Positions 9,339 to 46,132 of a stretch of 64,000 bases of DNA are shown here, piece after piece. The translations under genes and the position numbers were made by a program. This stretch comes from Sphingomonas flavalba (GTDB lineage Bacteria > Pseudomonadota > Alphaproteobacteria > Sphingomonadales > Sphingomonadaceae): positions 62,001 to 126,000 of the forward strand of contig NZ_SPHY01000007.1 in the NCBI RefSeq assembly GCF_004796535.1, in the 5' to 3' direction. The notes beneath the pieces were generated by a model. That model worked only from the letters and a program-made list of their open reading frames with translations. It ran no database searches and had not been told where the DNA came from. The stretch's first letter is position 1; each line of letters opens with the position of its first letter.

Positions 9339-9376
9339 AGCCGTCCGCAATCCCCCATTTTCACATTGGTTTTCGC

Positions 9377-10027: not shown

Positions 10028-10059
10028 CAAGCTTTTTTGCGACCAGAATACCGTATACG
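10024..10059 (+). promoter_or_regulatory. Candidate promoter and GntR operator before the DPP-IV gene
   Basis: A consensus -35 TTGACA (10024-10029) sits over the GntR stop. At the -10 distance is AATACC, immediately followed by the palindrome CGTATACG (10052-10059). TATAC-centred palindromes are the usual recognition sequence of FCD-GntR proteins. Confidence 0.4.
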
Positions 10060-10079
10060 AAATTGCTCGAGGGGTGGGG

Positions 10080-19725: not shown

Positions 19726-19726
19726 C

Positions 19727-21031: not shown

Positions 21032-21050
21032 CCTATCCTCCAGCAGAATA

Positions 21051-22055
21051 TCAGGCATCGAGCACCAGCCGCTCGCCCCTGGCGCGCGACACACAGGTGC
21101 AGATCAGTTTTCCGGCGCGTTTCTCGCGCTCGCTCAGGTTCATGTCGCGATGGTCCGGCTCGCCATCGATCACGTCGGTGACGCAGATGCCGCATTCGCC
21201 GCGCCGGCAGTCGAACAGCGGATCCAGGCCGATCTCCTCCATCACCTCCAATATCGTGCGGCCGACCGGCACTTCCGCCGTCTTGCCGCTGCGCGCGAAG
21301 ACGGCGGTGAACGGGCGGTCGCCGGCCCGCGGATCGTCGGCGCCGAACAGCTCGAAATGCAGGCGCGCATCCGGCCAGCCGGCCGCCTTCGCCGCCGCCA
21401 GCGTCGCCGCGATCAGCGGGCGCGGCCCGCAGACATACAGGTGCCGGCCCTCGCGCGGCCCGGCGACCAGCGCGTTCAGGTCAAGCCCCTTCGCCGGGTC
21501 GCCGCCGTCGCACACCAGCCGCGCGCCGGGCATCGCCGCCACCTCGTCGGCATAGGCCATCGCCGCGCGGTGGCGGCCGGCATAATGGATCTCGGCGCCG
21601 CGCCCGCCCAGCGCGCGGGCCATCGCCAGGATCGGCGTGATGCCGATGCCGCCGGCGATCAGCAGGGTCTCCGTCGCCGTCGTGACCAGCGGAAAGTCGT
21701 TGCGCGGGCTGCCGACGCGGATCGGGTCGCCGGCGCCGAGGCTGTGCATGAAGCGTGATCCGCCCCGCCCATCGCCGCTCAGCGCCACCGCGATCCGGTA
21801 GACGCCGGTCTCTCCCGGCGCATTGACCAGCGAATAGGCGCGCATGCCGGATCGGCCGTTAGGCAGGCGCACCTCGCATTCGACATGCGCGCCGGCTGAA
21901 AAACCGTCGAGGCGTTGCCCGTCGGCCGGGGCCAGCGCGAATTCCCGCACCGCCTCCGCCCGCTGGGCCGCCTCAACCACTCGCATCGGCCTCAACACGC
22001 ACGGCACCTCTGTCGTCGGGCGGGGACGCCCGTGATCTGCTGCTGTCGACATCAT
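21051..22055 (-). CDS. PDR/VanB-family oxidoreductase with C-terminal [2Fe-2S] ferredoxin domain
   Basis: This 334-residue electron-transfer flavoprotein has an N-terminal FMN-binding beta barrel (RAYSLVNAPGE with the flavin motif), then the NAD(P)H domain (LLIAGGIGITPILAMARAL and YVCGPRPLI). The C-terminal plant-type ferredoxin carries cluster cysteines in CRRGECGIC and a distal Cys in ICTCVSR. This single-chain architecture supplies Rieske oxygenases such as vanillate demethylase and IacC (as IacF). It is the first gene of the six-gene minus-strand operon. The start is uncertain: an internal ATG at 21986 would match VanB-type N-termini better. Confidence 0.85.
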   Translation of the reverse strand: MMSTAADHGRPRPTTEVPCVLRPMRVVEAAQRAEAVREFALAPADGQRLDGFSAGAHVECEVRLPNGRSGMRAYSLVNAPGETGVYRIAVALSGDGRGGSRFMHSLGAGDPIRVGSPRNDFPLVTTATETLLIAGGIGITPILAMARALGGRGAEIHYAGRHRAAMAYADEVAAMPGARLVCDGGDPAKGLDLNALVAGPREGRHLYVCGPRPLIAATLAAAKAAGWPDARLHFELFGADDPRAGDRPFTAVFARSGKTAEVPVGRTILEVMEEIGLDPLFDCRRGECGICVTDVIDGEPDHRDMNLSEREKRAGKLICTCVSRARGERLVLDA

Positions 22056-24481: not shown

Positions 24482-26734
24482 GTGAGGACCCGTTACGCCC
24501 TGATTCTATGCAGCGGCCTGACCGTGCTGGCTGCGCCGGCGCTGGCCCAGGAGGCCGCCGATACGGATTCGACGGATATCGTCGTCACCGCGCAGAAGCG
24601 CGCGCAGTCGGTGCAGGACATCGGCATCAGCATCACCGCGATCGGCGAGGACGAACTGCGGCGAAGCCAGGCGACCGACATCGGCACGCTGGCCAACCAG
24701 ATATCGAACGTCGTCGCGACGACCAGCTCGAACCTGCCCGCCTTCACCGTGCGCGGCATCGGCCTCAACGAATTCGCGTCGAACTTCGACTCCCCGGTCG
24801 CCGTCCATGTCGACGAGGTGTACAAGAGCAAGCCCTACATGGCGACGGTGCCGTTCTACGACATTCAGCGGGTCGAGGCGCTGAAAGGGCCGCAGGGGAC
24901 GCTGTTCGGCCGCAACACCACCGGCGGGTCGGTCAACTACTACACCGTCGAGCCGCAGTTCGATTCCTCCGGCGGGATGAACCTGTCGATCGACAATCAC
25001 GGCCGCGGGCGGATCGACGGCTTCGTCAACACGATGCTTGGCGAGCAGGCGGCGGTGCGCGGCTCCTACTTCGTCTCGCAGGGCCATGGCGGGCCGTACC
25101 GCAACCTGCTGACCGACAGCCGCTGGGGCAGCCCCAACCAACTGGCCGGGCGGCTGCAGCTGAAATGGCAGGGGGAGGGCACCACAATCCGCCTGATGGG
25201 CTACGGCTTTCGCGACAAGAGCGAACTGGCGCCCTACAAAAGCCCGGGCCTGTTCAACCCGGACGGGACGCTGTGCCCGCAGGTATTCACCGGCGAAATC
25301 CAGCGGCGGCGCGACTCATGTCTGAAATTCGGCCCGTTCGTGCCGGGGCCGAGCCCCCTCGGCCTGAGGGAATCGCAGAGCATCCGCACCTTCGCCGCCG
25401 ATACGCCGTGGAAGGCCGACAACAGCGCCTATGGCGGCTATGCCCGGGTCGAGCAGGAAGCCGGGCCGCTGACCCTGACGTCGATCACCGCGTTTGACTA
25501 TTTCAAACGCGATCAGGTCGACGACCCGGACGACACGCCTTACGTCACCACCAACCAGAACCTCTACAGCCGGATCAAGCAGTTCTCGCAGGAATTGCGG
25601 GCGACCGGCACGTTCGGGCGGTTGAACGTCTTGGTCGGCGGTTTCTACGAACATGACTCGATCCGCGACGTGGCGAGTGCCAATGTCGGGGAGAACCCGC
25701 TGGTCGGCCTGCCGCCCTTCGCGCCGCGCCTCGCCGCCGCCTTCACCCAGAAGGTGCGCTCGCTGGCGGTGTTCACCAATAACGAACTGGCGCTGACTGA
25801 CACGCTGTCGATCGTCGCCGGCCTGCGCTACACCAACGACAAGACCTCGCTCGACGCGAGCAGCTATCTGGGCGCCGACGATCCGACCGGGCCGACGCAT
25901 ATCGTCTCGCCGGCGATCCCAGTGTCCGACCTTGTCGACAGCCGGACGGACGGCACGACGTCCTTCCGCCTCGGCCTCAACTGGAAGGCGTCGCCGGACC
26001 AGCTATTCTACGCGTCGATCTCCCGCGGCTTCCGCAGCGGCGGCTACAGCGTGCCGTTCGGCGGCGTGATCACCAGCTTCGATCCCGAAAAGCTGACCGC
26101 CTACGAGATCGGGTCGAAATCGCGGCTGGCCGGGCGAACGCTGGACCTGAACCTGTCGGCCTTCTTCTACGACTACAAGGACCTGCAGACCAACGTCGAC
26201 GATCCGCTGTCGCCGCTGGTGCCGATCACCCGCAACATCGGCGGATCGCGGACCTACGGTGCCGAGGCGGACCTGACGTGGCGGCCGACGCCGACGACGC
26301 TGCTGCGCGTCGGCGGCAGCTATCTCGACGCGAAATACCGCAACACGGACGCGGTCATCACCACTTATGCCGGGCCGATCGCGCTTGACGGCAAGCGGCC
26401 GGTCAACACGCCGAAATGGTCGGCGCAGGGCCTGTTGCAGCAGAGCGTACCGGTCGGGCCGGACCTGGACCTGATCGGCAGCACCGATTTCAAGTATATC
26501 GGCGCGCGCTTCCTGGAATCGACCGGCCAGATCTTCGATCGCGCGCCGGCCTATTGGGTGCAGAATGCCCGGTTGGCGCTGTCGAGCCGGACCGGCGGCT
26601 GGGAAGTGGCGCTGTGGGGCAAGAACATCTTCAACAAGGAATATCTGACCTACATCAACAATGTCAGCTTCTTCCGTATCGAAATCTACGGCGAGCCGGT
26701 GTCCTACGGGCTTTCCGCGTCGTTCAAATTCTGA
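24482..26734 (+). CDS. TonB-dependent outer-membrane receptor
   Basis: This 750-residue protein begins at GTG 24482, chosen because AGAGGGGATGG precedes it and a signal peptide follows at once (RTRYALILCSG to ALAQEA). The TonB-box-like region is TDIVVTAQKR, the plug domain includes PQGTLFGRNTTGGSVNYYT, and the 22-strand barrel ends in SYGLSASFKF with a terminal Phe. It imports a bulky or scarce ligand with energy from TonB. It lies 22 bases upstream of an HDAC-like amidohydrolase, suggesting its ligand is an acylated amine or amide. It lacks an N-terminal signalling extension, so it is not a FecA-type transducer. Confidence 0.9.
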   Translation: MRTRYALILCSGLTVLAAPALAQEAADTDSTDIVVTAQKRAQSVQDIGISITAIGEDELRRSQATDIGTLANQISNVVATTSSNLPAFTVRGIGLNEFASNFDSPVAVHVDEVYKSKPYMATVPFYDIQRVEALKGPQGTLFGRNTTGGSVNYYTVEPQFDSSGGMNLSIDNHGRGRIDGFVNTMLGEQAAVRGSYFVSQGHGGPYRNLLTDSRWGSPNQLAGRLQLKWQGEGTTIRLMGYGFRDKSELAPYKSPGLFNPDGTLCPQVFTGEIQRRRDSCLKFGPFVPGPSPLGLRESQSIRTFAADTPWKADNSAYGGYARVEQEAGPLTLTSITAFDYFKRDQVDDPDDTPYVTTNQNLYSRIKQFSQELRATGTFGRLNVLVGGFYEHDSIRDVASANVGENPLVGLPPFAPRLAAAFTQKVRSLAVFTNNELALTDTLSIVAGLRYTNDKTSLDASSYLGADDPTGPTHIVSPAIPVSDLVDSRTDGTTSFRLGLNWKASPDQLFYASISRGFRSGGYSVPFGGVITSFDPEKLTAYEIGSKSRLAGRTLDLNLSAFFYDYKDLQTNVDDPLSPLVPITRNIGGSRTYGAEADLTWRPTPTTLLRVGGSYLDAKYRNTDAVITTYAGPIALDGKRPVNTPKWSAQGLLQQSVPVGPDLDLIGSTDFKYIGARFLESTGQIFDRAPAYWVQNARLALSSRTGGWEVALWGKNIFNKEYLTYINNVSFFRIEIYGEPVSYGLSASFKF

Positions 26735-26756
26735 TGCCGGCAGGGAGCCAAGCCGC

Positions 26757-27881
26757 ATGACCACCGGTTTCTACACCAGCGAGCGGACGTTCTGGCACTG
26801 TGTCGGCATGCAGGCGCTGTTCCTGCCGATCGGCGGCTGGGTGCAGCCGCCGTCCGGGGTGGCGGGGGCGGACACGCCGGATTCCAAGCGCCGGCTGCTG
26901 TCGCTGATCCAGGCGAGCGGGCTGATCGACCAGTTGAAGGTCGGCGGACCGGCACCGATCGGCGACGCCGACCTGCTGCGCGTTCATACCGCCCGCTATA
27001 TCGAGGAATTCAAGGCGGTCAGCGCCGCGGGCGGCGGCGACATCGGCGATTTCGCGCCGTTCAGCGCCGGCGGGTTCGACATTGCCTGCCTGTCCGCCGG
27101 GCTGGCCGTCGCGGCGGTCGACGACGTGCTGTCGGGCCGGGTCGACAATGCCTATGCGCTGTGCCGCCCGGCCGGGCACCATTGCCTTGCCGACCGATCG
27201 ATGGGCTTCTGCGTCCTCGCCAACATCCCGATCGCGCTGGAGGCCGCGCGGGCGCGGCATGGGGCACTGCGCGCGGCGGTCATCGACTGGGACGTGCACC
27301 ACGGCAACGGCACCCAGGCGATCTACTACGACCGGGCCGACACGCTGACCATCTCGCTCCACCAGGAGAATTGCTTCCCGCCCGGCTATAGCGGCGCCGA
27401 CGATCGCGGCAGCGGCGCGGGCAAGGGGTGCAACCTGAACATCCCGCTCGCGGCCGGCGGCGGGGACGACGCCTATCGCTACGCGTTGGAAACGCTGGTC
27501 GTGCCCGCCGTCGAGCAGTTCCGGCCCGATTTGATCGTGATCGCCAGCGGCCTCGACGCCGGTGCGGCCGACCCGATGGCGCGGATGCTGGCGCATAGCG
27601 AGACGTTCCGCGCGATGACCGAAGCCGTGCTCTCGCTGGCGGCGCGGCTGTGCGGCGGGCGGGTCGCCGTCGTCCATGAGGGCGGCTATTCCGAAGCGCT
27701 GGTCCCGTTCCTCGGCCTGGCGATCGTCGAGGCGCTGAGCGGATGCCGAACGACTGTTACCGATCCGACACTCCCCATCTGCATTCCGCAGCAGCCGGGG
27801 CCGACGGCGAGCGCATTCCACCGCGCGGTTATCGACGGGATTGCGCGGAACTGGCGGGAATGGAGCGAGAATAAAGGATGA
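26757..27881 (+). CDS. Histone-deacetylase-family amidohydrolase (acetylpolyamine amidohydrolase-like)
   Basis: This 374-residue cytosolic zinc hydrolase of the arginase/deacetylase fold keeps its active-site residues: His141-His142 in AGHHCLADRSMGFC, zinc ligands Asp179 and His181 in DWDVHHGNGT, the third ligand Asp267 in IASGLDAG, and the EGGYSE loop. It removes acetyl or related acyl groups from amines. The ATG at 26757 has CAGGGAGCC before it. Being coupled to a TonB receptor and followed by an amine dehydrogenase operon, it may release a free amine from an N-acylated compound. Polyamine, N-acetyltryptamine-like and amide substrates all remain possible. Confidence 0.85.
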   Translation: MTTGFYTSERTFWHCVGMQALFLPIGGWVQPPSGVAGADTPDSKRRLLSLIQASGLIDQLKVGGPAPIGDADLLRVHTARYIEEFKAVSAAGGGDIGDFAPFSAGGFDIACLSAGLAVAAVDDVLSGRVDNAYALCRPAGHHCLADRSMGFCVLANIPIALEAARARHGALRAAVIDWDVHHGNGTQAIYYDRADTLTISLHQENCFPPGYSGADDRGSGAGKGCNLNIPLAAGGGDDAYRYALETLVVPAVEQFRPDLIVIASGLDAGAADPMARMLAHSETFRAMTEAVLSLAARLCGGRVAVVHEGGYSEALVPFLGLAIVEALSGCRTTVTDPTLPICIPQQPGPTASAFHRAVIDGIARNWREWSENKG

Positions 27882-27921
27882 TTGCGCGGATCCGGATTGC
27901 GGGCAGCGAGCGGCTAATAGT

Positions 27922-27962
27922 TGAATATTCATGTTGACAGCGGAAGCGATTCTCCGACACAC
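27922..27962 (+). promoter_or_regulatory. Candidate promoter of the receptor/amine dehydrogenase operon
   Basis: The 120-base gap before the second TonB receptor holds a consensus -35 TTGACA (27934-27939) but only a weak -10 (GACACA). A 10-bp palindrome TGAATATTCA (27922-27931) lies just upstream and might bind a regulator. Support is modest. Confidence 0.3.
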
Positions 27963-28001
27963 TCTCCCCAACACGGCAAACGTGACAACAAGGGGAGATG
28001 G

Positions 28002-30212
28002 ATGATGCGAGCGAGCAAGGCGGCTATCAGCCTGCGTGTCCTGGCGGTGGCGGGGCTTTTCCAGTTTGCGAATCCGGCGCTGGCGCAGAGCGCGACCGCG
28101 CCTGCCGCGAGCAGCGGCGAGGGCGACATCGTCGTCACCGCGCAGAAGCGCGAGCAGAGCATCCAGTCGGTCGGTCTCGCGATCAGCGCGATGGGGCAGC
28201 AGAGCCTGGCCGAGATGGGGCGGCAGGACATGTCCGCCCTGGCGGCCAAGGTGCCGAGCCTGCAGGTGCTCGCCTACAGCCCGACCCTGACCGTGTTCAA
28301 CATCCGCGGCGTGTCGCAGAACGACTTCGCGGATTCGCAGGAGGCGCCGATCGCCTTCTACAATGACGAGGTCTACATCAGCGCGCTCGGCGCGATCGCC
28401 GGCCAGACCTATGACCTGGAGCGGGTGGAGATGCTGCGCGGCCCGCAGGGCACGCTGTTCGGCCGCAATGCCACCGGCGGCCTGGTCCAGATTGTTTCGG
28501 CCAAGCCGACCCGCGAACTGGACGGGTTCGTGACGCTGACCGGCGGCAGCTACGGCCAGTTCGCGACGGAGGGGGCGATCAGCGGGCCGCTGAGCGACCG
28601 GCTGCGCGCGCGCCTGTCCTTCACCAGCGACCATCACGGCGGCTATATCGACAATACCGCCGGCAAGGACATCGGCAATTCGAAGTTCTACGCCGGGCGC
28701 ATCCAGTTGGCCGGCGACGTCGGCGACGGTGGCGAATTCACGCTGAAGCTGCAGGGGCTGCGCAACAATGACGAGCGCAGCGGCGGCCTCTACAGCCACC
28801 GCACCGCCATTCCCAATGCCGACGGACTGGGCGAATATGTCGCGCGGACCGACGACCCATACGGCACCTGCACCGGCTGTGACCTGTTCGGCTATGTCCA
28901 GCCGGGGGATGACATCTTCAAGGTCGGGTTCAACGGCCCCAATTACTTCAACCGCAGCTACTGGAGCGCGACGCTGCGCTACGTGCAGGATCTGGGCGGC
29001 GTCACCCTGACGTCGATCTCCGACTACCAGCACCTGAAGAAGCGTTATGCCGAGGACGCCGACATGTCGCCGGCGCCGATCTTCCAGTACTATACCGCGC
29101 AGAACCTGGATCAGTACTCGCAGGAGTTGCGCCTGTCGGGCAGCAACGACCAGGTGAACTGGGTGGTCGGCGGCTATGCGATCAAGATCAAGAGCCGCAA
29201 CGAGTATAATACCGACCTGTCCAGCATCGGCCTGGGCGAGATTTACGGCGGTACGCTGGACACCGTGTCCTTCGCCGGCTTCGGCCAGATCGAGTATGCG
29301 CTGACCGATCAGGTCAGCCTGATCGGCGGCATCCGTTATTCCGCCGACCGCAAGACCTACGACTTCACCCACGCCGAGAACGGGGTGACCGATTTCACCT
29401 TCAACCGGGCCAGCGTCGGCAAGCTGGCGCGCCAGCATTTCAAGGATTATTCGGGCAAGGTCGGCGTCAATTTCAAGCCGAGCGAGGATGCGCTGCTCTA
29501 TCTGAGCGTTAATCGCGGCATCAAGGGCGGCGGTTTCGGCACGCCGGCCTTCCACCCCGGCGACCTGTCGACGATCCCGTTCAAGGAAGAGGTGCTGACC
29601 GACTATGAAGGCGGCGTGAAGCTGACGCTTGGCGGCACGTCCCACCTGAACCTGTCCGCCTTCTATTACGACTACAAGGACTATCAGGCGTTCGAGCTGG
29701 TCGGCATCTCGCTGGCGATCCGCAACAAGGACGCGACGATCAAGGGGCTTGAGTTCGAGTTCAACACCCGCCCGGTGCCGGGGCTGTTCCTCCAGACCTT
29801 CGCGACCCTGCTTGACAGCAAGGTGAAGGGCGTCGTCCTGCCATCCGGCCGGGTCGCCGACACGCGGATGCCGCAGGCGCCGAAGCTAAGCATCGGCGCG
29901 CTCGGGCGCTACGAGTTCGATCTCGGCACCGGCAAGCTGGCGCTGCAGACCGACTGGAAATACGACAGCGCGCTCTATTTCTCGACGTTCAACGCGCCGG
30001 TCGACCGCCAGCCCGGCCGCGTCGTCGGCAATGTCCGCGCATCCTACGCGTTCAACGACCGGTGGGAGGTCGCGCTGTTCGCCAACAACGTGACCGACAA
30101 GGCCTATCGCCTCTACAATCTCGATCTGTCCGGGCCGTTCGGCTTTACCCAGCAATCCTATGCGCGGCCGCGCTGGATTGGCGGGAGCCTGACCTATCGT
30201 CTAGGTAGCTAG
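28002..30212 (+). CDS. TonB-dependent outer-membrane receptor, first gene of the amine dehydrogenase operon
   Basis: This 736-residue receptor has a signal peptide (MRASKAAISLRV to ALAQSA), TonB box region DIVVTAQKREQ, plug motif PQGTLFGRNATGGLVQI, and a barrel ending GGSLTYRLGS. ATG 28002 follows AAGGGGAGATGG; a longer frame starting 27921 lacks a ribosome site and would hide the signal peptide. Only 39 bases separate it from the cytochrome gene, so it is probably co-transcribed with the TTQ amine dehydrogenase. That makes an amine, or a compound yielding one, its likely ligand. Amine dehydrogenase operons usually do not carry a receptor. Confidence 0.9.
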   Translation: MMRASKAAISLRVLAVAGLFQFANPALAQSATAPAASSGEGDIVVTAQKREQSIQSVGLAISAMGQQSLAEMGRQDMSALAAKVPSLQVLAYSPTLTVFNIRGVSQNDFADSQEAPIAFYNDEVYISALGAIAGQTYDLERVEMLRGPQGTLFGRNATGGLVQIVSAKPTRELDGFVTLTGGSYGQFATEGAISGPLSDRLRARLSFTSDHHGGYIDNTAGKDIGNSKFYAGRIQLAGDVGDGGEFTLKLQGLRNNDERSGGLYSHRTAIPNADGLGEYVARTDDPYGTCTGCDLFGYVQPGDDIFKVGFNGPNYFNRSYWSATLRYVQDLGGVTLTSISDYQHLKKRYAEDADMSPAPIFQYYTAQNLDQYSQELRLSGSNDQVNWVVGGYAIKIKSRNEYNTDLSSIGLGEIYGGTLDTVSFAGFGQIEYALTDQVSLIGGIRYSADRKTYDFTHAENGVTDFTFNRASVGKLARQHFKDYSGKVGVNFKPSEDALLYLSVNRGIKGGGFGTPAFHPGDLSTIPFKEEVLTDYEGGVKLTLGGTSHLNLSAFYYDYKDYQAFELVGISLAIRNKDATIKGLEFEFNTRPVPGLFLQTFATLLDSKVKGVVLPSGRVADTRMPQAPKLSIGALGRYEFDLGTGKLALQTDWKYDSALYFSTFNAPVDRQPGRVVGNVRASYAFNDRWEVALFANNVTDKAYRLYNLDLSGPFGFTQQSYARPRWIGGSLTYRLGS

Positions 30213-30251
30213 GGGCAGGGTGACTGTGGCTGTATGGCAGGGAGTGGGAGA

Positions 30252-30647
30252 ATGGTGATGACGGCAGGGCGTATCTTTCCTGTCATCCGGTTGGCGGCGG
30301 GCATTGCGGCGCTGTGCAGCGTGGCGCCGGCCGCGGCGCAACAGGCGGCAGCGGGGGCGACCTTGTTCAAGCGCTGTGCGATCTGCCATTCCGTCACGCC
30401 GGGCAAGGGCGTGACGCTGGGCCCCAATCTCGCCGGTATCGTCGGGCGCAAGGCGGGCGCGCAGACGGGCTTCACCTATTCCAAGGCGATGGCCGGCGCG
30501 CCGTTCAAATGGGATCAGGCGAAGCTCGATGCGTTCCTGGCGCGGCCGCAGGCTGTGGTGCCCGGCAATCGCATGGCCTTTGCCGGCATGTCCAACACGG
30601 CGGAGCGGGCGCAGCTTATCGCCTATTTGAAAACATTGGGCAAATGA
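30252..30647 (+). CDS. Class I c-type cytochrome
   Basis: This 131-residue protein has a signal peptide (to about residue 30, VAPAAAQ) and a haem-binding CAICH at residues 42-46. The axial Met lies in GNRMAFAGM. Around it are GPNLAGIVGRKAG and FTYSKAMAGAPFKWD, the classic mitochondrial-type cytochrome c2 layout. It lies directly before the amine dehydrogenase heavy chain and so is the likely electron acceptor of the TTQ enzyme, replacing the azurin or amicyanin used in other bacteria. ATG 30252 follows GGAGTGGGAGA; ATG 30258 is an alternative. Confidence 0.88.
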   Translation: MVMTAGRIFPVIRLAAGIAALCSVAPAAAQQAAAGATLFKRCAICHSVTPGKGVTLGPNLAGIVGRKAGAQTGFTYSKAMAGAPFKWDQAKLDAFLARPQAVVPGNRMAFAGMSNTAERAQLIAYLKTLGK

Positions 30648-30678
30648 ACGGCCGCCCGGCGGCCACGGGAGGAGCGTG

Positions 30679-31839
30679 ATGAACATCTGGCGCATTGCAG
30701 CTTCCGCGGCCCTGGCCGCCGCCATCGTGCCGGCGGCGGCGCTGGCGCAGACCGAAGAGCTGAAAAGCGAGGAGATGTACCAGGTCGAACTGGCCGACCA
30801 GATGCGCCCGCATTGGGTGTGGGTGAACGACGTGTCCTTCACCCGCCCGCTCGACGGCCGCGCCTATCTGCTCGACGCCGACAGCGGGCAGTTCCTCGGC
30901 ATGGTCAGCGGCGGCTATGCGCAGGGGCCGTTGCAGATCACCCGCGACGGCAAGCGCTTCTCGATGGTTTCGACCTATTATTCGCGCGGGACTCGTGGCG
31001 AGCGCACTGATGTTGCTACGTTCTATGACATCAAGACGCTGGACCAGACTGGCGAGGTGGTGATCCCGCCCAAGCATTTCATCAGCCTGCCGATCCTGTC
31101 GACCGCGCGGCTGAGCGACGACGACCGGTTCCTGCTGGTTTACAATTTCACCCCCGAACAATCGGTGTCGGTCGTCGACGTCGCCGCCGGCAAGCTGATC
31201 GGCGAAACCGCGACGCCGGGCTGCGCGCTGGTCTACCCGGTCGCGCCGCGCCGGTTCTTCATGCAGTGCAGCGACAGCGCGCTGCAGGCGGTGTCGATAT
31301 CCGAGGCCGGTGCGCTTTCGCTCGATGCGACGACGACCAAGCTGTTTTCCGACGACGACCCGGCCAACGAAAAGCCGGTGCGGATCACCCCGGCCGAGTG
31401 GCTGTTCATCACCCGCGACAGCGAGGTGCGGATCGTCGACGGGTCCGGCGCGGTGCCGAAGGTCAAGGCGAAGTGGAGCCTGCTCGACAAGGATACCGCC
31501 GAATGGCGGATCGGCGGGCTGCAGCCGTCCGCCTATCATGCCCGCTCGGGGCGCCTCTACACGCTGATGCATGTGGGGGATCGCGATACCCACAAGGACC
31601 CCGGCACGGAGGTGTGGGTCTATGACGTCGCCGCCGGCAAGCGGGTGCAGCGGATCAAGCTGGACGGGCCGGCAACGGCGCTGGCGGTCAGCGAGGATGC
31701 GGAGCCGCTGCTCTACACGGTGATGTTCGGGGTCGACGAGCTGGCGGTCTACGATGCCCGCGACGGGACCAAGCGGCGCGGGATCACCGGCCTCGGCAAT
31801 TCGCTGAGCGTGATCCAGCCGGCGCCGGTCGCGCCGTGA
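30679..31839 (+). CDS. aauB: TTQ amine dehydrogenase heavy (beta-propeller) subunit
   Basis: This 386-residue periplasmic protein has a signal peptide (to ALAQT, about residue 24) and a seven-bladed propeller as in MauB/AauB. Recognisable pieces are HWVWVNDVSF, RAYLLDADSGQFLGM, TFYDIKTLDQTGEV, FMQCSDSALQ and THKDPGTEVWVYD. The heavy subunit forms the alpha2beta2 enzyme and shapes the substrate pocket over the TTQ cofactor of the light chain. ATG 30679 has GGGAGGAG five bases before it. The gene order B-E-D-A matches both mau and aau clusters. The light chain (DYWRYCAIDGFLCSCCGG) is closest in feel to aromatic amine dehydrogenase, hence aau. Confidence 0.85.
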   Translation: MNIWRIAASAALAAAIVPAAALAQTEELKSEEMYQVELADQMRPHWVWVNDVSFTRPLDGRAYLLDADSGQFLGMVSGGYAQGPLQITRDGKRFSMVSTYYSRGTRGERTDVATFYDIKTLDQTGEVVIPPKHFISLPILSTARLSDDDRFLLVYNFTPEQSVSVVDVAAGKLIGETATPGCALVYPVAPRRFFMQCSDSALQAVSISEAGALSLDATTTKLFSDDDPANEKPVRITPAEWLFITRDSEVRIVDGSGAVPKVKAKWSLLDKDTAEWRIGGLQPSAYHARSGRLYTLMHVGDRDTHKDPGTEVWVYDVAAGKRVQRIKLDGPATALAVSEDAEPLLYTVMFGVDELAVYDARDGTKRRGITGLGNSLSVIQPAPVAP

Positions 31840-31846
31840 GCGGGTG

Positions 31847-32383
31847 ATGCTCGACCCCTTCCTTCTGCTCCTCGCGCGGGCGGCGCTGGGCGGGCTGATG
31901 CTGGCGGCGGCGCTGCACAAGCTGAGTGAGCCGGCGCGCTTCGCCGACGCGGTCGACGGCTATCGGCTGGTGCCGGCGCCGCTGATCCGGCCGACGGCGT
32001 GGGCGATCATGCTGGCCGAACTGGCGGCGGCGCTGGCCGTGCTCTGGCCGGTCGGCGAGGCGTGGCGGGCGGGGCTGGGCGGTGTCGCCGGGCTGATGCT
32101 GGCCTATGCCGCTGCGATGGCGATCAACCTGCTGCGCGGGCGCAGCAATGTCGACTGCGGCTGCCTGGGCTTCGGCGCGGCCAAGCGGATTCGCTGGGCG
32201 ATGGTCGGGCGCGGCGGGGCGCTGGCGGCGGTGTCCGCGCTGGTCGCCCTGGCGCCGGCGGCGGTGCGGCCGCTGCTGTGGATCGACTGGTTCGGCGTGG
32301 GCGTCGGCCTGCTGTGCGTGCTGTTGCTCTACATTGCGTTTGACGCGATCATCGGGGCGCCGTTGCGGGAGAAGGCCCGGTGA
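31847..32383 (+). CDS. aauE: Amine dehydrogenase accessory membrane protein MauE/AauE
   Basis: This 178-residue inner-membrane protein has four or five hydrophobic segments (LLLLARAALGGLMLAAAL, AIMLAELAAALAVLWPV, a third near GLMLAYAAAMAINLL, and two near the C-terminus). A DCGCLGFG cysteine pair is exposed after the third segment. MauE-type proteins belong to the DoxX/VKOR-like electron carriers and work with MauD in forming the many disulfides of the light chain. It starts 8 bases after the heavy chain and overlaps MauD by one base. Confidence 0.85.
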   Translation: MLDPFLLLLARAALGGLMLAAALHKLSEPARFADAVDGYRLVPAPLIRPTAWAIMLAELAAALAVLWPVGEAWRAGLGGVAGLMLAYAAAMAINLLRGRSNVDCGCLGFGAAKRIRWAMVGRGGALAAVSALVALAPAAVRPLLWIDWFGVGVGLLCVLLLYIAFDAIIGAPLREKAR

Positions 32384-33012
32384 TGACTGCCCTTGTCATT
32401 GCGGTATGCGTCCAGTGGGTGCTGATTGCCGTGCTGTGCGTCGGGCTGGTGGTGCTGCTGCGCCAGGTTGGGATGCTGCACGAGCGGCTCGGCCCGGTCG
32501 GCGCGCTGACCCTGCCGGGCGGGCCGAAGGCGGGCGATGCCGCGCCGCGGATGGCGCTGCGCGCGATGGATGGCCGGACGGTGACCGTCGGCGGCGCCCA
32601 TGCCGCCGGCCGGTCGACCCTGCTGTTTTTCCTGTCGCCGACCTGTTCGGTCTGCAAGACGCTGCTCCCGGTGGTGAAAGGCATTGCGCAGGAGGAGCGG
32701 AAGGCGCTGGACCTGGTGCTGGCCAGCGACGGCGACGAGCCGTTGCAGCGGCGGATGGTCGCGGATCACGGGCTGGAGGCATTTCCGCTGCTGCTGTCGA
32801 CCGACCTTGGCCTGGCCTATCAGGTATCGAAGCTGCCCCATGCGGTGCTGATCGCGCCGGACGGCACGGTCGCGGCCAAGGGGCTGGTCAACAACCGTGA
32901 GCATCTGGAAAGCCTGTTCGAGGCGCGCCGGCAGGGCGTCGCGTCGCTGCAGCAATATCTCAATCGTGAACGGGCCATCCCCGAGGGGATCGAAACGAGG
33001 ACGGTAACATGA
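32383..33012 (+). CDS. aauD: Amine dehydrogenase accessory thioredoxin-like protein MauD/AauD
   Basis: This 209-residue protein has an N-terminal membrane anchor (residues 4-26) and a periplasmic thioredoxin-like domain with active site CSVC at Cys88 and Cys91. It is expected to form or rearrange disulfides in the cysteine-rich light chain, and loss of MauD in methylotrophs prevents light-chain accumulation. The start overlaps the MauE stop as TGATG and the stop overlaps the light-chain start by 4 bases, so the three are tightly coupled. Confidence 0.87.
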   Translation: MTALVIAVCVQWVLIAVLCVGLVVLLRQVGMLHERLGPVGALTLPGGPKAGDAAPRMALRAMDGRTVTVGGAHAAGRSTLLFFLSPTCSVCKTLLPVVKGIAQEERKALDLVLASDGDEPLQRRMVADHGLEAFPLLLSTDLGLAYQVSKLPHAVLIAPDGTVAAKGLVNNREHLESLFEARRQGVASLQQYLNRERAIPEGIETRTVT

Positions 33013-33527
33013 ACAGACTGGACCGGATCACCGAAGCGCTCGCCCGATCGGCGGCGCGGCGCCTGTCGCGGCGCAGTTTCTTCGGGCGGCTGGGCGCGGC
33101 GATGACGGTGGCGACGGTGCCGCTGCTCCCGGTCAGCCGCGCCGCCGCCGAGCGTGGGCCGCAACCGCCCCAGCCGCAGGAAAAGGGCGATCCGGCCAAT
33201 TGCGACTATTGGCGCTATTGCGCGATCGACGGCTTCCTCTGTTCGTGCTGCGGCGGATCGATGTCGTCCTGCCCGCCGGGGACGGAGCCATCGCCGATCA
33301 CCTGGGTCGGCACCTGCCGCAACCCGGTCGACAACAAGGACTATGTGATCTCGTACAACGATTGCTGCGGCAAGAGCGCGTGCGGCCGCTGCGAGTGCAA
33401 CCGCAACGAACGCGATACGCCGGTCTATCAGCCCGCCGGATCGAACGACATCAACTGGTGCCTCGGCACGCAGAGCGGCGTCGTCTACAACTGCTCGACC
33501 GCCGTCGTGCTCGGCGCCGCCAGCTAG
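33009..33527 (+). CDS. aauA: TTQ amine dehydrogenase light (catalytic) subunit
   Basis: This 172-residue precursor has a long twin-arginine leader (SRRSFFGRLG at 20-29, cleavage near SRAAAE). The mature part keeps 14 cysteines from residue 65 on, as in MauA and AauA. The two tryptophans that form the TTQ cofactor are Trp99 (TWVGTC) and Trp150 (NDINWC), 51 residues apart, the same spacing as Trp57 and Trp108 of the methylamine enzyme. The catalytic base is Asp118 (SYNDCCG), equivalent to Asp76. All essential residues are present, so an active enzyme is expected. It deaminates primary amines to aldehydes. Aromatic amines such as tryptamine, tyramine and phenylethylamine are likely, and methylamine is less so. 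Confidence 0.92.
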   Translation: MNRLDRITEALARSAARRLSRRSFFGRLGAAMTVATVPLLPVSRAAAERGPQPPQPQEKGDPANCDYWRYCAIDGFLCSCCGGSMSSCPPGTEPSPITWVGTCRNPVDNKDYVISYNDCCGKSACGRCECNRNERDTPVYQPAGSNDINWCLGTQSGVVYNCSTAVVLGAAS

Positions 33528-33532
33528 CGCCG

Positions 33533-33976
33533 ATGCGCGGGCGCTCCGCCGTGCCGTGGGTCGCCGCCCCGCTGCTGGCGGTGGCGGGTGCGGTGCTGGT
33601 GACCGGCGCGACCGCGCCGCAGGACCGATCGCCGCGAACCAATTACGCGCTGCATTGTCAGGGGTGTCACCTGCCGGATGGAAGCGGCAAGCCCGGCGCG
33701 GTGCCTGACATGCGCGGCGAACTGGGGCGGCTGGCCGCCATTCCGGGCGGACGGGAGTTCATCGTCCAGGTGCCGGGTACCGCCAGCGCCAAGCTCGACG
33801 ACGCCCAGGTAACCGCGCTGCTCAACTGGCTGGTCCCGGCGATGGGGCCGCCGGTGCCGGGCGGGTTCAGGCCGTATAGCGTCGAGGAGGTCGGCCGGCT
33901 GCGGCGCCAGCGGCTGAAGCAGGTCGAGCCGCTAAGGTCCGAACTGGGCCGGGCGATCGCCGCGCAGCGGCGGTAG
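33533..33976 (+). CDS. Small monohaem cytochrome c
   Basis: This 147-residue exported protein has an N-terminal hydrophobic segment (residues 8-27) and one haem site CQGCH at residues 42-46. Possible axial methionines are in PDMRGE or PAMGPP. It ends with a charged helix rich in Arg and Glu. It starts 5 bases after the light chain and closes the operon. A small cytochrome gene after the light chain is also known in aromatic amine dehydrogenase clusters. It could take electrons from the enzyme or take part in TTQ maturation; the sequence does not decide. Confidence 0.82.
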   Translation: MRGRSAVPWVAAPLLAVAGAVLVTGATAPQDRSPRTNYALHCQGCHLPDGSGKPGAVPDMRGELGRLAAIPGGREFIVQVPGTASAKLDDAQVTALLNWLVPAMGPPVPGGFRPYSVEEVGRLRRQRLKQVEPLRSELGRAIAAQRR

Positions 33977-34914: not shown

Positions 34915-36051
34915 ATGCGCGCGGGAGATATCGCGCCGCTGATCGGCGGCACCTTCCTGGCCATGTATCCTATGATGGCGACGCCGATCCTGGTCGGCGG
35001 GCTGGTCGATTGGGCGGGGCTGTCCGGCGAGCAGGCCGGGTGGATCGGCACGATCTCGATCGGCGCGGTGGCGCTGGCGTCGATGCTGCTGCCGCGCCTG
35101 CTGCACCGCCACCCCGGCCGGGCGCTGCCCTTCCTGTTCGCGACGATGCTGGCGCTTGGCTATGCCGGCTATTCGTTCGCCGCCGGTTTCCCGGCCTTCG
35201 TGGCGTTGGCGCTGGTCACCGGTATCGGCTCCGGCGGGCTGCTGGCGGCGATGGCGATGCGGATCGCCAAGACCGCGCAGCCCGACCGCGTCTACGGCAT
35301 CATCTATGCGACCGCGTCGATCGTGTTCGCGGCGCTGCTGTTCGCGCTGCCGCCGCTCGGCGAAGCCTGGGGTATCCCGGCGGAGTTCCGGCTGCTGGCG
35401 CTGGTCGCCGTCGCGGTGATGCCGCTGCTCGCGCGGCTGAAGGCCGATGTGGCGCCTGTGGGCGTGGAAGGCGGCGGCGCGACACGGCGACCGTGGGCGA
35501 TGATCTGGACGGTGGTACTGGTGATGACCATCGCCTTTCCGCTTTACGGCGGTGTCTATGCCTTTTCGGAGCGGCGCGCGGTCGACATCGGCCTTGGCGC
35601 GGCGGCGATCGGCGGGGCGCTGGCGGCGGCGACGGTGATGACCGTCGTCGGCGCGCTGCTTGTCGCCTGGGTCGGCACCCGCCCCGGCCGCACGCTGCCG
35701 ACGATGGCGACGATGGCGGTGGCGACACTGTCCTACGGCCTGGTGCTGGGGGCCGCCACGCCGCCATTGTTCCTGGCCGGGATGCTGGCGTTCGGGCTGA
35801 TGCAGATGGCGCTCAATTCCTATTTCTTCGGTCTCGCCTCGACGCTTGACCGCGAGGGGCATGTCGCGGCGGCGCTGCAGGGCTATTCCCTGATCCCCTA
35901 CGCGCTGGGCGCCGGGCTGTTCGGCAGCCTGGCGGGGGACGGGAATATGCGCCTGCTGGCCTGGCCGGCGGTGGCGATCAGCGTCTTCGCGGCGCTGATC
36001 CTGCTGCCGATGCTGATCCGGCTCGACCGGCAGGGCGAGGCGGCGGCGTGA
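34915..36051 (+). CDS. MFS transporter
   Basis: This 378-residue integral membrane protein has about 12 hydrophobic helices and MFS features (LVDWAGLSGEQAGWIG in the first loop, RIAKTAQPDRVYG in the cytoplasmic loop). ATG 34915 is preferred over ATG 34900 because GGGCGGGAGGGG precedes it. It overlaps the APC permease start by 4 bases and heads the operon MFS-APC-aminotransferase-kinase. The substrate is unknown; by context an amine, amino alcohol or organic acid is likely. Confidence 0.82.
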   Translation: MRAGDIAPLIGGTFLAMYPMMATPILVGGLVDWAGLSGEQAGWIGTISIGAVALASMLLPRLLHRHPGRALPFLFATMLALGYAGYSFAAGFPAFVALALVTGIGSGGLLAAMAMRIAKTAQPDRVYGIIYATASIVFAALLFALPPLGEAWGIPAEFRLLALVAVAVMPLLARLKADVAPVGVEGGGATRRPWAMIWTVVLVMTIAFPLYGGVYAFSERRAVDIGLGAAAIGGALAAATVMTVVGALLVAWVGTRPGRTLPTMATMAVATLSYGLVLGAATPPLFLAGMLAFGLMQMALNSYFFGLASTLDREGHVAAALQGYSLIPYALGAGLFGSLAGDGNMRLLAWPAVAISVFAALILLPMLIRLDRQGEAAA

Positions 36052-37388
36052 GCGGGGAACTCGCCCGCGCGGCGATCGGCTGGCGGCAGATCGCCGGCCT
36101 CGGCGTCGCGCTGGTCGTCGCCGGCCAGTTCACCGGCTGGAACTACGGGCTGGCGGCGGGCGGCTGGGCCAACATGGTGGCGGCGACGCTGCTGATGGCG
36201 GTGCTGTGCTTCGGCCTGGCGCTGTGCGTCGCCGAGCTGTCCGCCGCCCGGCCGAGCGCCGGCGGACTCTATGTCTATTGCGAGGCGGCGTTCGGCCCGT
36301 TCGCCGGCTATGCCGTCGGCTTCGCGGTGTTCGCGGCGCTGTCGATCAGCACCGGCGCGGCGGTGCAGTTCGTTTCCGCTTATTGCGAGCACGCCTTCGG
36401 CTTTGGCGGCTGGCCGCTGAAGCTGGCGCTGTTCGCCGCGATCATCGCGCTCCACGCCCGTGGGGTGGGGGAGGCGATGCGCTGGATGGTCGGCGCCGGC
36501 GTGCTGGCGGTCGTCGCGATCGGGCTGTTCGACATGACGATGCTGCCCTATTTCGATCCGGCCAAGCTGACCGTCGACGGCCGCCCGCCTGCCGTCGACC
36601 TGGCAGGGGTGATCGCCTGCATCCCGTTCGCGATCTGGCTGTTCATCTCGGTCGAGCAGACCGCCGCCGCGTCGGAGGAAGTACGCGACCCGGCCCGTGC
36701 GATGCCGCGCGGGATCATCGCCGCGATCGTCATCCTGCTGCTGTCGGCGCTGAGCGTGCTGCTGCTGGCGGCCGGAGGCGGCGGTGTCGCCCAGGTCGGC
36801 GCCGCCGACGACCCGATGCTGGCGGCGATGACCAGCCCGCTGGCGCAGGGCGGGCCGGGGCCGATGGTCATGATCGTCGGCGCGGGCGGAATGCTGGGGC
36901 TGGTCGCGACATTGTTCTCGCTGATCTACTCCGCATCGCGCCAGTTGTTCGCGCTCGCCCGCGACGGCCACCTGCCGGCGGTGCTGGCGCGGACCAATCG
37001 GCGCGGTGCGCCCCATGTCGCGCTGCTGCTGGTCGGCGCGATCGGCGTCGCGATGGCGTCGGTCCGCCCCGAAAGCATCCTGCTCGCCGTCGTGCTGCTG
37101 CTCAGTGCCTCCTACGTCGTGCTGCTCGCCGCGTTCATCCGCCTGCGCCGCCGCCAGGGCGATCTGCACCGCCCGTTCCGCGCATGGGGCGGGCAGGTGA
37201 CCGCCGCGCTTTGCCTGTGCCTGGCGCTGCTGGTCTGCGTCGCCTGCTTCCAGGTGGAGGTGCCGGTGCTGGTTGGGCTGGCACTGCTGCTGGGCGCCGC
37301 CGGGCTTTGCTATCTGTGGAGCCGCCGTCACCGGGCGCCGGCTTCTCCCGCCTTTGTTTCGCCGATGGAAAGGTCGTCCGATGTCTGA
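36048..37388 (+). CDS. APC-family amine/amino acid permease (ethanolamine-permease-like)
   Basis: This 446-residue permease has 12 hydrophobic helices. Its N-terminus GWRQIAGLGVALVVAGQF and the ARPSAGGLYVYCEAAFGPFAG stretch match the ethanolamine/amino acid group of the APC superfamily, and the cytoplasmic motif EEVRDPARAMPRGI is present. The GTG start at 36048 overlaps the MFS stop, and its stop overlaps the aminotransferase start by 8 bases. The following two genes look like a kinase and phospho-lyase for an amino alcohol, so this permease probably brings in that substrate. Confidence 0.82.
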   Translation: MSGELARAAIGWRQIAGLGVALVVAGQFTGWNYGLAAGGWANMVAATLLMAVLCFGLALCVAELSAARPSAGGLYVYCEAAFGPFAGYAVGFAVFAALSISTGAAVQFVSAYCEHAFGFGGWPLKLALFAAIIALHARGVGEAMRWMVGAGVLAVVAIGLFDMTMLPYFDPAKLTVDGRPPAVDLAGVIACIPFAIWLFISVEQTAAASEEVRDPARAMPRGIIAAIVILLLSALSVLLLAAGGGGVAQVGAADDPMLAAMTSPLAQGGPGPMVMIVGAGGMLGLVATLFSLIYSASRQLFALARDGHLPAVLARTNRRGAPHVALLLVGAIGVAMASVRPESILLAVVLLLSASYVVLLAAFIRLRRRQGDLHRPFRAWGGQVTAALCLCLALLVCVACFQVEVPVLVGLALLLGAAGLCYLWSRRHRAPASPAFVSPMERSSDV

Positions 37389-38664
37389 TGATGCTGTGCT
37401 GCTGGAGCGGCGCTTTCGGGTTATGGGCCGCAACGCGCCGCTGTTCTACGACCGGCCGGTGCATCTGGTGCGCGGCAGCGGCGTATGGGTGGAGGATGCC
37501 GACGGCCGGCGCTATCTGGACGTCTACAACAACGTGCCCCATGTCGGCCATTGCCACCCGCATGTCGTGGAAGCGATCGCCCGGCAGGCGGCGACGCTGA
37601 ACCTGCACACCCGCTATCTGCACGAAACCGTCGTCGCCTATGCCGAGCGGCTGACCGCGACCTTCGCCGAGCCGCTGGACGCGGCGATCTTCACCTGTTC
37701 GGGCACCGAATCCAACGAACTTGCGCTGCGGCTGGCGCGCTATCGCAGCGGCGGGCGCGGCATCATCGTCAGCGATTTCAGCTATCACGGCAATTCGGAG
37801 ACGCTGGCGGCGGTGACCACCTGCTTCCCGGTGCCGGAGCCATTCCCCGCCTTTGCCCGCAAGGTGCCGGTGCCCGACCCCTATCGCGACCGGCAGGGGC
37901 GGGACGACGCGGCGCTGGGCGACCTGTTCGCGGCGAAGATCGCCGAGGCGGTCCGCTCGCTGAAGGCGGAAGGGATCCCGCTCGCCGCGCTGCTGATCGA
38001 CACGCTATTCGCCAATGAGGGGCTACCGGAGCCGGTGCCCGGCTATGTCGCCAAGGCGGTCGCCATCGTCCGTGAGGCGGGCGGCCAGTTCATCTGCGAC
38101 GAGGTTCAGGCCGGCTTTGGCCGCACCGGCGACGCGATGTGGGGCCACCAGTTGAGCGGCGTCACGCCGGATATCGTCACGCTCGGCAAGCCGATGGGCA
38201 ATGGCCACCCAATTGCCGGGGTGATCGCGCCGGCCGAACTGATCGATTCCTTCGGCAAGGCGGCGACCTATTTCAACACCTTCGGCGGCAATCCGGTGTC
38301 GGCCGCCGCCGGCATGGCGGTGCTCGACGTGATCGAGGATGAAGGGCTGCTGGAGAACGGCCGCCGGGTTGGCGCCCATGTCCGCGCCGGGCTGGAGCGG
38401 CTGAGGACGCGTTATCCGATCATCGGCAACGTCCGGGGCAGGGGGCTGTTCTTCGGCATCGAGATCATCGCCGACGCGGCCGAGAAGACGCCGGATCCGG
38501 CGCGGACCAAGCGGCTGGTCAACATGATGCGCGACCGGGGCGTGCTGCTCAGCCGTATCGGGCGGTACGACAATATCCTGAAGATGCGGCCGCCGATGGT
38601 GTTCACCACGGACGATGCCGATCTGCTGCTGGCGACGCTCGACGACGCGTTCGCGGCGCTGTGA
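37381..38664 (+). CDS. Class-III PLP enzyme, amino-alcohol-phosphate phospho-lyase-like
   Basis: This 427-residue protein has a class-III aminotransferase fold with PLP lysine Lys270 in VTLGKPMGNGHP and the DEVQAGFGRTG motif. The N-terminal part (YLDVYNNVPHVGHCHPHVV, then NLHTRYLHETVVAYAERL) resembles the AGXT2L subgroup, which does not transaminate but removes phosphate and ammonia from phosphoethanolamine or phosphohydroxylysine to give an aldehyde. An APH-fold kinase gene adjoins it, just as hydroxylysine kinase pairs with its lyase. A normal aminotransferase cannot be excluded. The start overlaps the permease end by 8 bases. Confidence 0.78.
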   Translation: MSDDAVLLERRFRVMGRNAPLFYDRPVHLVRGSGVWVEDADGRRYLDVYNNVPHVGHCHPHVVEAIARQAATLNLHTRYLHETVVAYAERLTATFAEPLDAAIFTCSGTESNELALRLARYRSGGRGIIVSDFSYHGNSETLAAVTTCFPVPEPFPAFARKVPVPDPYRDRQGRDDAALGDLFAAKIAEAVRSLKAEGIPLAALLIDTLFANEGLPEPVPGYVAKAVAIVREAGGQFICDEVQAGFGRTGDAMWGHQLSGVTPDIVTLGKPMGNGHPIAGVIAPAELIDSFGKAATYFNTFGGNPVSAAAGMAVLDVIEDEGLLENGRRVGAHVRAGLERLRTRYPIIGNVRGRGLFFGIEIIADAAEKTPDPARTKRLVNMMRDRGVLLSRIGRYDNILKMRPPMVFTTDDADLLLATLDDAFAAL

Positions 38665-38675
38665 AAGGCCCGGTG

Positions 38676-39713
38676 ATGCCTGATTTCTACGCATTGCCGG
38701 ACGCGGAGCAGGCGGCGCTGCTGACCGGCCTCGCCCGCCATGCGCTGGCGCGGTGGGATGGCGCTTTCGACACACCGGAACTGGTCAAATATCGCGAAAA
38801 TGCCGTGTTCTCCGTCCGCCATGCGGACGGTGGGCGGGTGGCGTTGCGCGTCCACCGCCACGGTTACCATTCCGACGCGGCGCTCCATTCGGAACTGCAC
38901 TGGATGCAGGCGCTGGGTGCGCGCGGCGTCGCGGTCCCGCCGATCGTGCCGGCGGCGTGCGGCAGCATGTTCGTCACCGTCACTGCGCCCGACATTCCCG
39001 AACCGCGCCAGGTCGACATGCTCGGCTGGATGGCGGGGACGCCGGTCGGCTCCGCCGAGGATGGGCTGGTGCTTGATCCGGCGGCGGCGGAGCGGCTGTA
39101 TTTCGACGCCGGGGCATTGGCTGCGACGGTGCACCGGGAAACCCGGGCGATGCGGTTGCCGGACGGCTTCGTGCGCCATGCCTGGGACGAGGCCGGGCTG
39201 ATCGGCGCGCAGCCGCTGTGGGGGCGGTTCTGGGACCTGGCGATGCTGACCGAGGCCGACCGAGCGCTGCTGGCCGAGGCGCGGGCGCGGGCGGCACGGG
39301 ACCTGAGCGCCTTTGGCCGGACGGCGGAGAATTACGGGCTGATCCATGCCGATTTCGTGCCGGAGAATTTGCTCAGCGAGGCAGGGCGGCTGAAGCTGAT
39401 CGATTTCGACGATTCCGGCTTTGGTTGGCACATGTTCGAGCTGGCGACCGCGCTCTATTTCAACATCGACGAGCCGTTCTACCCTGCGATCGAGCGGGCG
39501 CTGTTCGCCGGCTATCGTTCGGTCCGGCCGCTGCCGGCGGCGGAGGAGACGCTGCTGCCGCTGTTCCTGTTCCTGCGCGGCACGACCTATCTGGGGTGGA
39601 TCCAGACCCGGCCGGAAACCCAGACGGCGCGTGAGCTTGGCCCGATGCTGATCGCGCGGATCCGGCAGGTGGCGCGCGCCTATCTTGCCTCGCCCCCGCC
39701 CGCGCCGGCATAG
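38676..39713 (+). CDS. Aminoglycoside-phosphotransferase-fold small-molecule kinase
   Basis: This 345-residue kinase of the APH/choline-kinase fold has N-lobe ENAVFSVRHADGGRVALRVH, catalytic loop HADFVPENLL (Asp and Asn present) and metal-binding IDFDDSGFG. Homologues include homoserine and hydroxylysine kinases. It adjoins a phospho-lyase-like gene, which fits a two-step route in which a hydroxy-amine is phosphorylated and then cleaved. GTG 38661 would overlap the previous stop; ATG 38676 with GAAAGG upstream is preferred. It is not a resistance gene by context. Confidence 0.8.
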   Translation: MPDFYALPDAEQAALLTGLARHALARWDGAFDTPELVKYRENAVFSVRHADGGRVALRVHRHGYHSDAALHSELHWMQALGARGVAVPPIVPAACGSMFVTVTAPDIPEPRQVDMLGWMAGTPVGSAEDGLVLDPAAAERLYFDAGALAATVHRETRAMRLPDGFVRHAWDEAGLIGAQPLWGRFWDLAMLTEADRALLAEARARAARDLSAFGRTAENYGLIHADFVPENLLSEAGRLKLIDFDDSGFGWHMFELATALYFNIDEPFYPAIERALFAGYRSVRPLPAAEETLLPLFLFLRGTTYLGWIQTRPETQTARELGPMLIARIRQVARAYLASPPPAPA

Positions 39714-40353: not shown

Positions 40354-40968
40354 TCAGCCGCGGGCGAGGATGCGCCGGGCCTGATCCTCGTCGACGACCT
40401 CGGCATATTTGGCCTGAAGATCGAACAGATTGGCGTCGTGCTGGGCGGCGCCGCGATCGGCGCAGCCGTCGCGTACCACGAACGGCGCGAAGCCGTTCTG
40501 CAACGCGTCGAGCGCGCTCGCGCGGACGCAGCCGGAGGTCGAGAATCCGGTGATCAGCAGCGTATCGATGCCAAGCGTGGTCAGCATCGGCGTGAGCGCG
40601 GTGCCGAAGAAGGCGGAGGCATATTGCTTGGTGACGACGATGTCGCCGGCCGCCGGGGTCAGCGCCGGCGGAAAGGCGCCGAGTGGCGACCCCGCCTGGA
40701 ATTGGGCGAGCGCCGGCACCTTGCGGTAGAACAGCCCGCCGTCGACGCCGCCGGGCGCATAGACGACGCGGGTGAAGATGACGGGTGCGGCGGCGGCGCG
40801 TGCTGCTGCTGCCAGCCGCGCGGTTGCCGCCACCGCCGCTTCGCCGTCCAGGAACAGCGACGAGGCGGGGTCGAGATAGGCCATGACCATGTCGACGACC
40901 AGCAGCGCCGGGTGCGCGCCGGGGGCGAGCGTGCCGCTGAACGGATCGACGGAGCCGGGGGGCGCCAT
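40354..40968 (-). CDS. Isochorismatase-family cysteine hydrolase, N-carbamoylsarcosine-amidase-like
   Basis: This 204-residue protein has an intact Asp-Lys-Cys triad: Asp26 in LVVDMVMAY, Lys114 in VVTKQYASAF and Cys147 in STSGCVRASALDALQNGF. The last stretch is strongly reminiscent of N-carbamoylsarcosine amidase, which splits N-carbamoyl amino acids into amine, CO2 and ammonia. Two bases separate it from the CaiB gene, and hydantoinase-type A/B genes lie in the same operon. Together these suggest ring opening of a hydantoin or lactam and then removal of the carbamoyl group. A ureidoacrylate or maleamate hydrolase role is possible. Confidence 0.82.
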   Translation of the reverse strand: MAPPGSVDPFSGTLAPGAHPALLVVDMVMAYLDPASSLFLDGEAAVAATARLAAAARAAAAPVIFTRVVYAPGGVDGGLFYRKVPALAQFQAGSPLGAFPPALTPAAGDIVVTKQYASAFFGTALTPMLTTLGIDTLLITGFSTSGCVRASALDALQNGFAPFVVRDGCADRGAAQHDANLFDLQAKYAEVVDEDQARRILARG

Positions 40969-40970
40969 CG

Positions 40971-42167: not shown

Positions 42168-42175
42168 CCTTTCTC

Positions 42176-44053: not shown

Positions 44054-44066
44054 GGTCGCGCTCCCT

Positions 44067-46115: not shown

Positions 46116-46132
46116 GGACTCCATCCCCTCCG

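Follow-up and report, generated by a model that had tools for sequence, protein, structure and literature searches.

A monohaem cytochrome c accompanies the light chain of aromatic amine dehydrogenases and may stand in for MauG in tryptophan tryptophylquinone formation

We analysed a 64,000-nucleotide stretch of DNA from Sphingomonas flavalba (contig NZ_SPHY01000007.1 of assembly GCF_004796535.1, positions 62,001 to 126,000 of the forward strand; hereafter the window), which carries an operon for an amine dehydrogenase with the cofactor tryptophan tryptophylquinone (TTQ). The last gene of the operon encodes a small monohaem cytochrome c, here called cytc2, and we found that cytc2 is an obligate partner of the enzyme's light chain in the aromatic amine dehydrogenase (aau) branch of the family. 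In methylamine dehydrogenase (mau) TTQ is completed by MauG, which uses two haems; to our knowledge, how the aau branch makes its TTQ is not settled, MauG having been studied in methylamine dehydrogenase. At the loci compared, cytc2 and MauG/MauF were mutually exclusive, and from sequence comparisons we give a somewhat better than even chance to the proposal that cytc2 replaces MauG in TTQ maturation.

Of more than 500 matches, the 80 best supplied the aau-type loci, and neighbourhoods were counted at 84 aau-type and five mau-type loci with enough flanking sequence, within a reach of 9 kb. The genomes compared are related to one another, and the counts do not represent independent events. cytc2 was found at 82 of the 84 aau loci and at none of the five mau loci, all of which had mauG and mauF. 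Conversely, at none of the 84 aau loci did the light chain have a mauG-like gene or mauF within 9 kb, and among the neighbours tested there, none but cytc2 was near-universal. On plasmids, cytc2 occurred with 15/15 aau-type light chains and with 0/15 of the mau type. When 399 genomes of one family (f44, probably Burkholderiaceae) were compared, cytc2 was present in exactly the 69 with a full light chain and absent from the remaining 330 (Fisher p 3e-79, uncorrected for relatedness), and copy numbers matched, with two cytc2 genes in each of the 10 genomes that had two light chains. A separate 399-genome sample of the phylum showed cytc2 close to all 13 full-length light chains (11 genomes); one partial match stood on its own, and two fragmentary light-chain matches were without cytc2. 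Eight of the first 80 loci had no full cytc2 in the stretch covered, four stretches ending within 1.1 kb of the light-chain start, and seven of these eight genomes carried cytc2 elsewhere or nearby.

Some loci showed other arrangements. Two stretches (L229 and L230) had cytc2, at about 7.5–7.9 kb, without any other aau gene, the light chain being elsewhere in the genome, which shows that the pairing holds without linkage. At another locus (L010, about 8864–10519), a heavy and light chain pair had no adjoining mauE, mauD or cytc2, and cytc2 was on a different contig. At part of the loci (L025, L029–L031, L074, L131 and others) a tandem second cytochrome c stood between the light chain and cytc2, to which it is weakly paralogous (about 42–77 bits).

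The source genome (35 contigs, reported completeness 100%) had no CCP_MauG domain (PF03150) and no match to the MauG model TIGR03791 at E≤1e-3. This threshold was used instead of the curated TIGR03791 cut-off because MauG of Paracoccus denitrificans scored 94.6 bits, far under the 443.85 bits required. The curated cut-off was thus rejected as a test for MauG, and annotation by this NCBIfam model misses true MauG proteins. As a control, the search at E≤1e-3 was run on plasmid records: in each of the five of the mau type, that of P. denitrificans among them, it detected a MauG gene adjoining mauA, and in the seven of the aau type it gave no match. A match to MauG or a diheme peroxidase was also lacking in 14 of the 50 aau-carrying genomes of relatives and in 24 of the 69 aau genomes of family f44; single-contig assemblies were among the aau genomes without such a match. 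Our best reading is that TTQ is finished without MauG in the source genome.

The cytc2 protein, with 147 residues, one haem motif and a c552-like fold, does not belong to the MauG/bacterial diheme peroxidase group. Both by sequence and by fold it was nearest to Thermus thermophilus cytochrome c552 (PDB 1c52; Foldseek 4e-4 to 7e-4, TM 0.56–0.64, 32% identity), but the c552 loop of about 18 residues that holds the Met69 ligand was missing and replaced by a short VPG turn. An alignment of 44 family members (A1) showed an invariant CxGCH motif, Pro58, Gly73, Pro81-Gly82, Asn98 and Arg124. In the family none of the Met, His, Lys and Cys columns beyond the haem motif was conserved, and of 74 sequences 39 had Met and 28 had Leu in the commonest Met column, so that cytc2 lacks the conserved Met sixth ligand of class I electron-transfer cytochromes. 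Because the ligand loop is deleted and no sixth ligand is conserved, the haem site of cytc2 is probably open or weakly closed (five-coordinate). The peroxidase activity of cytochrome c was previously shown to rise once the Met ligand is lost (PMC8398203). The first-pass annotation had described the operon as bracketed by two cytochromes c. Both are present, but they are unlike in kind: the first, cytc1, looks like an ordinary His/Met carrier, with a CAICH haem motif and an NRMAFAGM Met-ligand motif, and is likely a better candidate than cytc2 for the electron acceptor.

The operon belongs to the aau side of the TTQ family and not to the mau side. The light chain retains both TTQ tryptophans (W99 and W150), the catalytic D118 and exactly 14 cysteines, as the first-pass annotation had read them. 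W99, W150 and D118 were invariant when 121 aau-type and five mau-type light chains were aligned; 12 of the cysteines are common to methylamine dehydrogenase, and the remaining pair, C81/C125, was found in 114/121 aau-type compared with 1/5 mau-type sequences. In the PDB, aromatic amine dehydrogenase was the best match of the light chain, with methylamine dehydrogenase scoring worse, and it was also favoured, narrowly, by the heavy chain. Both chains scored below the NCBIfam equivalog cut-offs for methylamine dehydrogenase (166.5 versus 196.85 bits for the light chain, with TIGR02659, and 167.2 versus 454.45 bits for the heavy chain). In the tree, the split between aau and mau had 100/100 support, and the window light chain grouped with that of Alcaligenes faecalis, which was nested within aau. 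The families of the heavy and light chains, the pattern of TTQ residues and cysteines and the tree position all agree with membership of the aau family, and TTQ is presumably formed in the window enzyme.

In the pathway that we propose, the TonB receptor would import the amine substrate, its presumed cargo, across the outer membrane, and the periplasmic enzyme would oxidise the amine with a TTQ built from W99 and W150. Electrons would pass to cytc1 and then to the respiratory chain. MauE and MauD would handle the light-chain disulphides, and cytc2 would carry out the final oxidative step of TTQ on the light chain, its open haem site allowing it to react with peroxide or oxygen. Completion of TTQ by cytc2 would be the simplest reading because a TTQ enzyme is encoded, MauG is absent and a one-haem partner with an apparently open site is universal. 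Whether TTQ formation in the aau branch as a whole follows a second route that does without MauG, with an open-site monohaem cytochrome acting as a hitherto unassigned protein-modifying haem enzyme, seems to us evenly balanced. Several points weigh against the proposal for cytc2. Its sixth ligand was judged only from sequence and a haem-free model, and it has one haem where MauG has two. Diheme peroxidases encoded away from the aau locus occur in many aau genomes and may give MauG-like help there, and a cytochrome that served only as electron acceptor of the enzyme would be just as likely to show an obligate pairing.

Such an acceptor role, which amicyanin or azurin fills elsewhere, with TTQ made autocatalytically or through an unrelated factor, is a possible but clearly less probable explanation. 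It accounts for the one-to-one pairing of cytc2 and light chain. Split operons were considered as a test between maturase and acceptor, but they did not discriminate: cytc2 stayed with the light chain and beside the structural genes when mauE and mauD were separated, which fits either role. The ordinary acceptor candidates, however, vary by locus (cytc1 here, the other tandem cytochrome, or none) whereas cytc2 is constant, and a carrier would be expected to retain a sixth haem ligand. It is improbable that TTQ is completed by an enzyme encoded elsewhere, with cytc2 in some other accessory role. MauG-free routes exist in principle, since the related cofactor cysteine tryptophylquinone is made without MauG by the flavoproteins QhpG, LodB and GoxB (PMC7876137), and a flavoprotein of this type or one of the unlinked diheme peroxidases could be the enzyme in question. 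Against this, no diheme peroxidase was matched in the source genome and 38 others, and no tested neighbour except cytc2 was near-universal. If cytc2 does replace MauG, Alpha-, Beta- and Gammaproteobacteria would all show a strict exchange of MauG for a cytochrome with one haem, and the short list of haem proteins known to alter amino acids of a second protein would gain a very small member. The cytc2 gene might also be what has been lacking for the production of aau enzymes in other hosts.

The operon was real and complete, with all seven genes on one strand (Table 1). The co-directional arrangement with small gaps and the reading as a TTQ amine dehydrogenase operon with a TonB receptor at its head, both proposed from the sequence beforehand, were borne out by open reading frames and Pfam matches, which confirmed every named gene; that account had the gene content right and overlooked that MauG is absent and that cytc2 is of a special kind. 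In the order receptor, cytc1, heavy chain, MauE, MauD, light chain and cytc2, the successive gaps were 21 or 39, 31, 7, −1, −4 and 5 nt, the first depending on the start codon chosen, so that no gap exceeded 39 nt and every junction after the first was at most 31 nt or overlapping. A promoter between the receptor and the cytochrome gene, which would argue against a common transcript, was sought, and the only sigma-70-like site near this junction was weak (9/12 match) and lay inside the receptor gene. On plasmid pNL2 of Novosphingobium aromaticivorans DSM 12444, the receptor frame shares 4 nt with the cytochrome frame, which supports a single transcript. In this strain the cytc1 gene is SARO_RS19960, and the cytc2 orthologue on pNL2 is SARO_RS19985, which is annotated as a hypothetical protein. 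A promoter scan of the gap ahead of the receptor scored no consensus site.

Table 1. Features of the amine dehydrogenase operon (positions in the window)
Feature	Position	Strand	Evidence
Gap of 120 nt ahead of receptor, likely promoter region	27882..28001	+	sequence
TonB-dependent receptor (TBDR2), probable first operon gene	28002..30212	+	PF00593 1.5e-30, PF07715 3.7e-10
cytc1, class I cytochrome c, c-550 type	30234..30647	+	PF00034 6e-11; NF043008 4.7e-24 (below cut-off)
Amine dehydrogenase heavy chain (aauB/mauB-like)	30679..31839	+	PF06433 1e-44; top PDB match aromatic amine dehydrogenase 4e-45
MauE-like membrane protein	31847..32383	+	PF07291 4e-23
MauD-like thioredoxin-fold accessory protein	32383..33012	+	TIGR02661 191.3 bits, cut-off 188.6
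TTQ light chain (aauA-like), twin-arginine leader	33009..33527	+	PF02975 4e-53; PDB 2agl 1.1e-47
cytc2, monohaem cytochrome c without conserved sixth ligand	33533..33976	+	alignment A1, co-occurrence, plasmids, fold

The receptor at the head of the operon, TBDR2, carries both a plug and a beta-barrel domain. Its presence had been taken as a departure from aau operons, said normally to lack a TonB receptor, and as a sign that the natural substrate does not diffuse freely, and neither claim was supported. A TonB receptor lay within 9 kb at 34 of the 84 aau loci, often directly upstream, in sphingomonads and marine gammaproteobacteria. Orthologues of TBDR2 with 58–60% identity occupied the same upstream position in Rhizorhabdus, Sandarakinorhabdus and Niveispirillum, and in Novosphingobium sp. 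EMRT-2 a receptor precedes the heavy chain; at 15 loci inspected in family f44, no receptor was found. The receptors next to aau genes formed one main clade of Alpha- and Gammaproteobacteria plus several smaller clades. The idea of an aau-specific receptor clade was rejected, as an unbiased plasmid search gave closer relatives outside aau loci (47% and 38%), and the closest plasmid relatives of TBDR2 were in records without a TTQ enzyme. The receptor is thus an optional part that recurs among bacteria rich in such receptors. A receptor that is apparently the first gene and keeps its position in several sphingomonads would suit a large or bound amine unable to pass porins, but we regard such a substrate as unlikely. 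No receptor was found within 9 kb at 50/84 aau loci, the nearest plasmid relatives were unlinked to the enzyme, and in Sphingobium SYK-6 aromatic compounds appear to enter through TonB receptors and not through porins (PMC6874591), so that a receptor in the operon does not prove a non-diffusing amine. DdvT and other TonB receptors of SYK-6 are tied to aromatic catabolism in a sphingomonad (PMC6874591), as the window receptor, with its presumed substrate, probably is.

Family membership and the surrounding catabolic genes make aromatic amines the likely substrate. Upstream on the plus strand (24482–27881), the gene of a second TonB receptor stands 22 nt ahead of one for a histone-deacetylase-like amidohydrolase (PF00850), which might free amines from N-acyl forms; relatives of this hydrolase were near 9/84 other aau loci, which belonged to sphingomonads and to marine gammaproteobacteria. 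Further upstream on the minus strand (16255–22055), a Rieske ring-hydroxylating dioxygenase (alpha, beta and reductase) adjoins the operon, together with an isochorismatase-like hydrolase, a short-chain dehydrogenase/reductase, a flavin amine oxidase-like gene and two AraC regulators, and the aau operon of pNL2 likewise has a ring-hydroxylating dioxygenase as a neighbour. Downstream on the plus strand (34915–39713) are major facilitator superfamily and amino-acid-type permeases, a class III aminotransferase-like protein, whose best match was to the C-terminal portion of the large family PRK06148, and an aminoglycoside-phosphotransferase-like kinase. Relatives of the latter two recurred near 5–7 other aau loci. 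A literature search on the kinase/phospho-lyase pair as a pointer to octopamine-type substrates yielded nothing useful. A single run of isochorismatase, coenzyme A-transferase III, hydantoinase B and A and hydroxymethylglutaryl-lyase-like genes follows on the minus strand (40354–47059).

The closest characterised system is the aromatic amine dehydrogenase of A. faecalis (aauBEDA; PDB 2agl/2agy), in which TTQ is known through crystal structures. Its light chain is 56% identical to the window light chain over 113 residues, with all 14 cysteines, D118 and the TTQ tryptophan pair aligned, and its heavy chain is the top PDB match of the window heavy chain. The window operon differs in having a receptor and cytc1 and in having no azurin gene. 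From its tree position alone, A. faecalis is predicted to have cytc2. The A. faecalis cluster has unassigned reading frames behind aauA; no description of an aau gene cluster was found in the literature searched, and the best match to the A. faecalis light chain in a search for an Alcaligenes genome was 65%. A top-down periplasmic proteome of N. aromaticivorans lists Saro_1685 as its amine dehydrogenase, without any mention of tryptophylquinone in the text. The mau cluster of P. denitrificans has the same B-E-D-A order and the same TTQ residues as the window, but the window operon is without mauF, amicyanin and mauG, and mau loci are without cytc2. The likeness between cytc2 and MauG would lie only in the proposed job of completing TTQ, as the two differ in haem count and in fold relationship.

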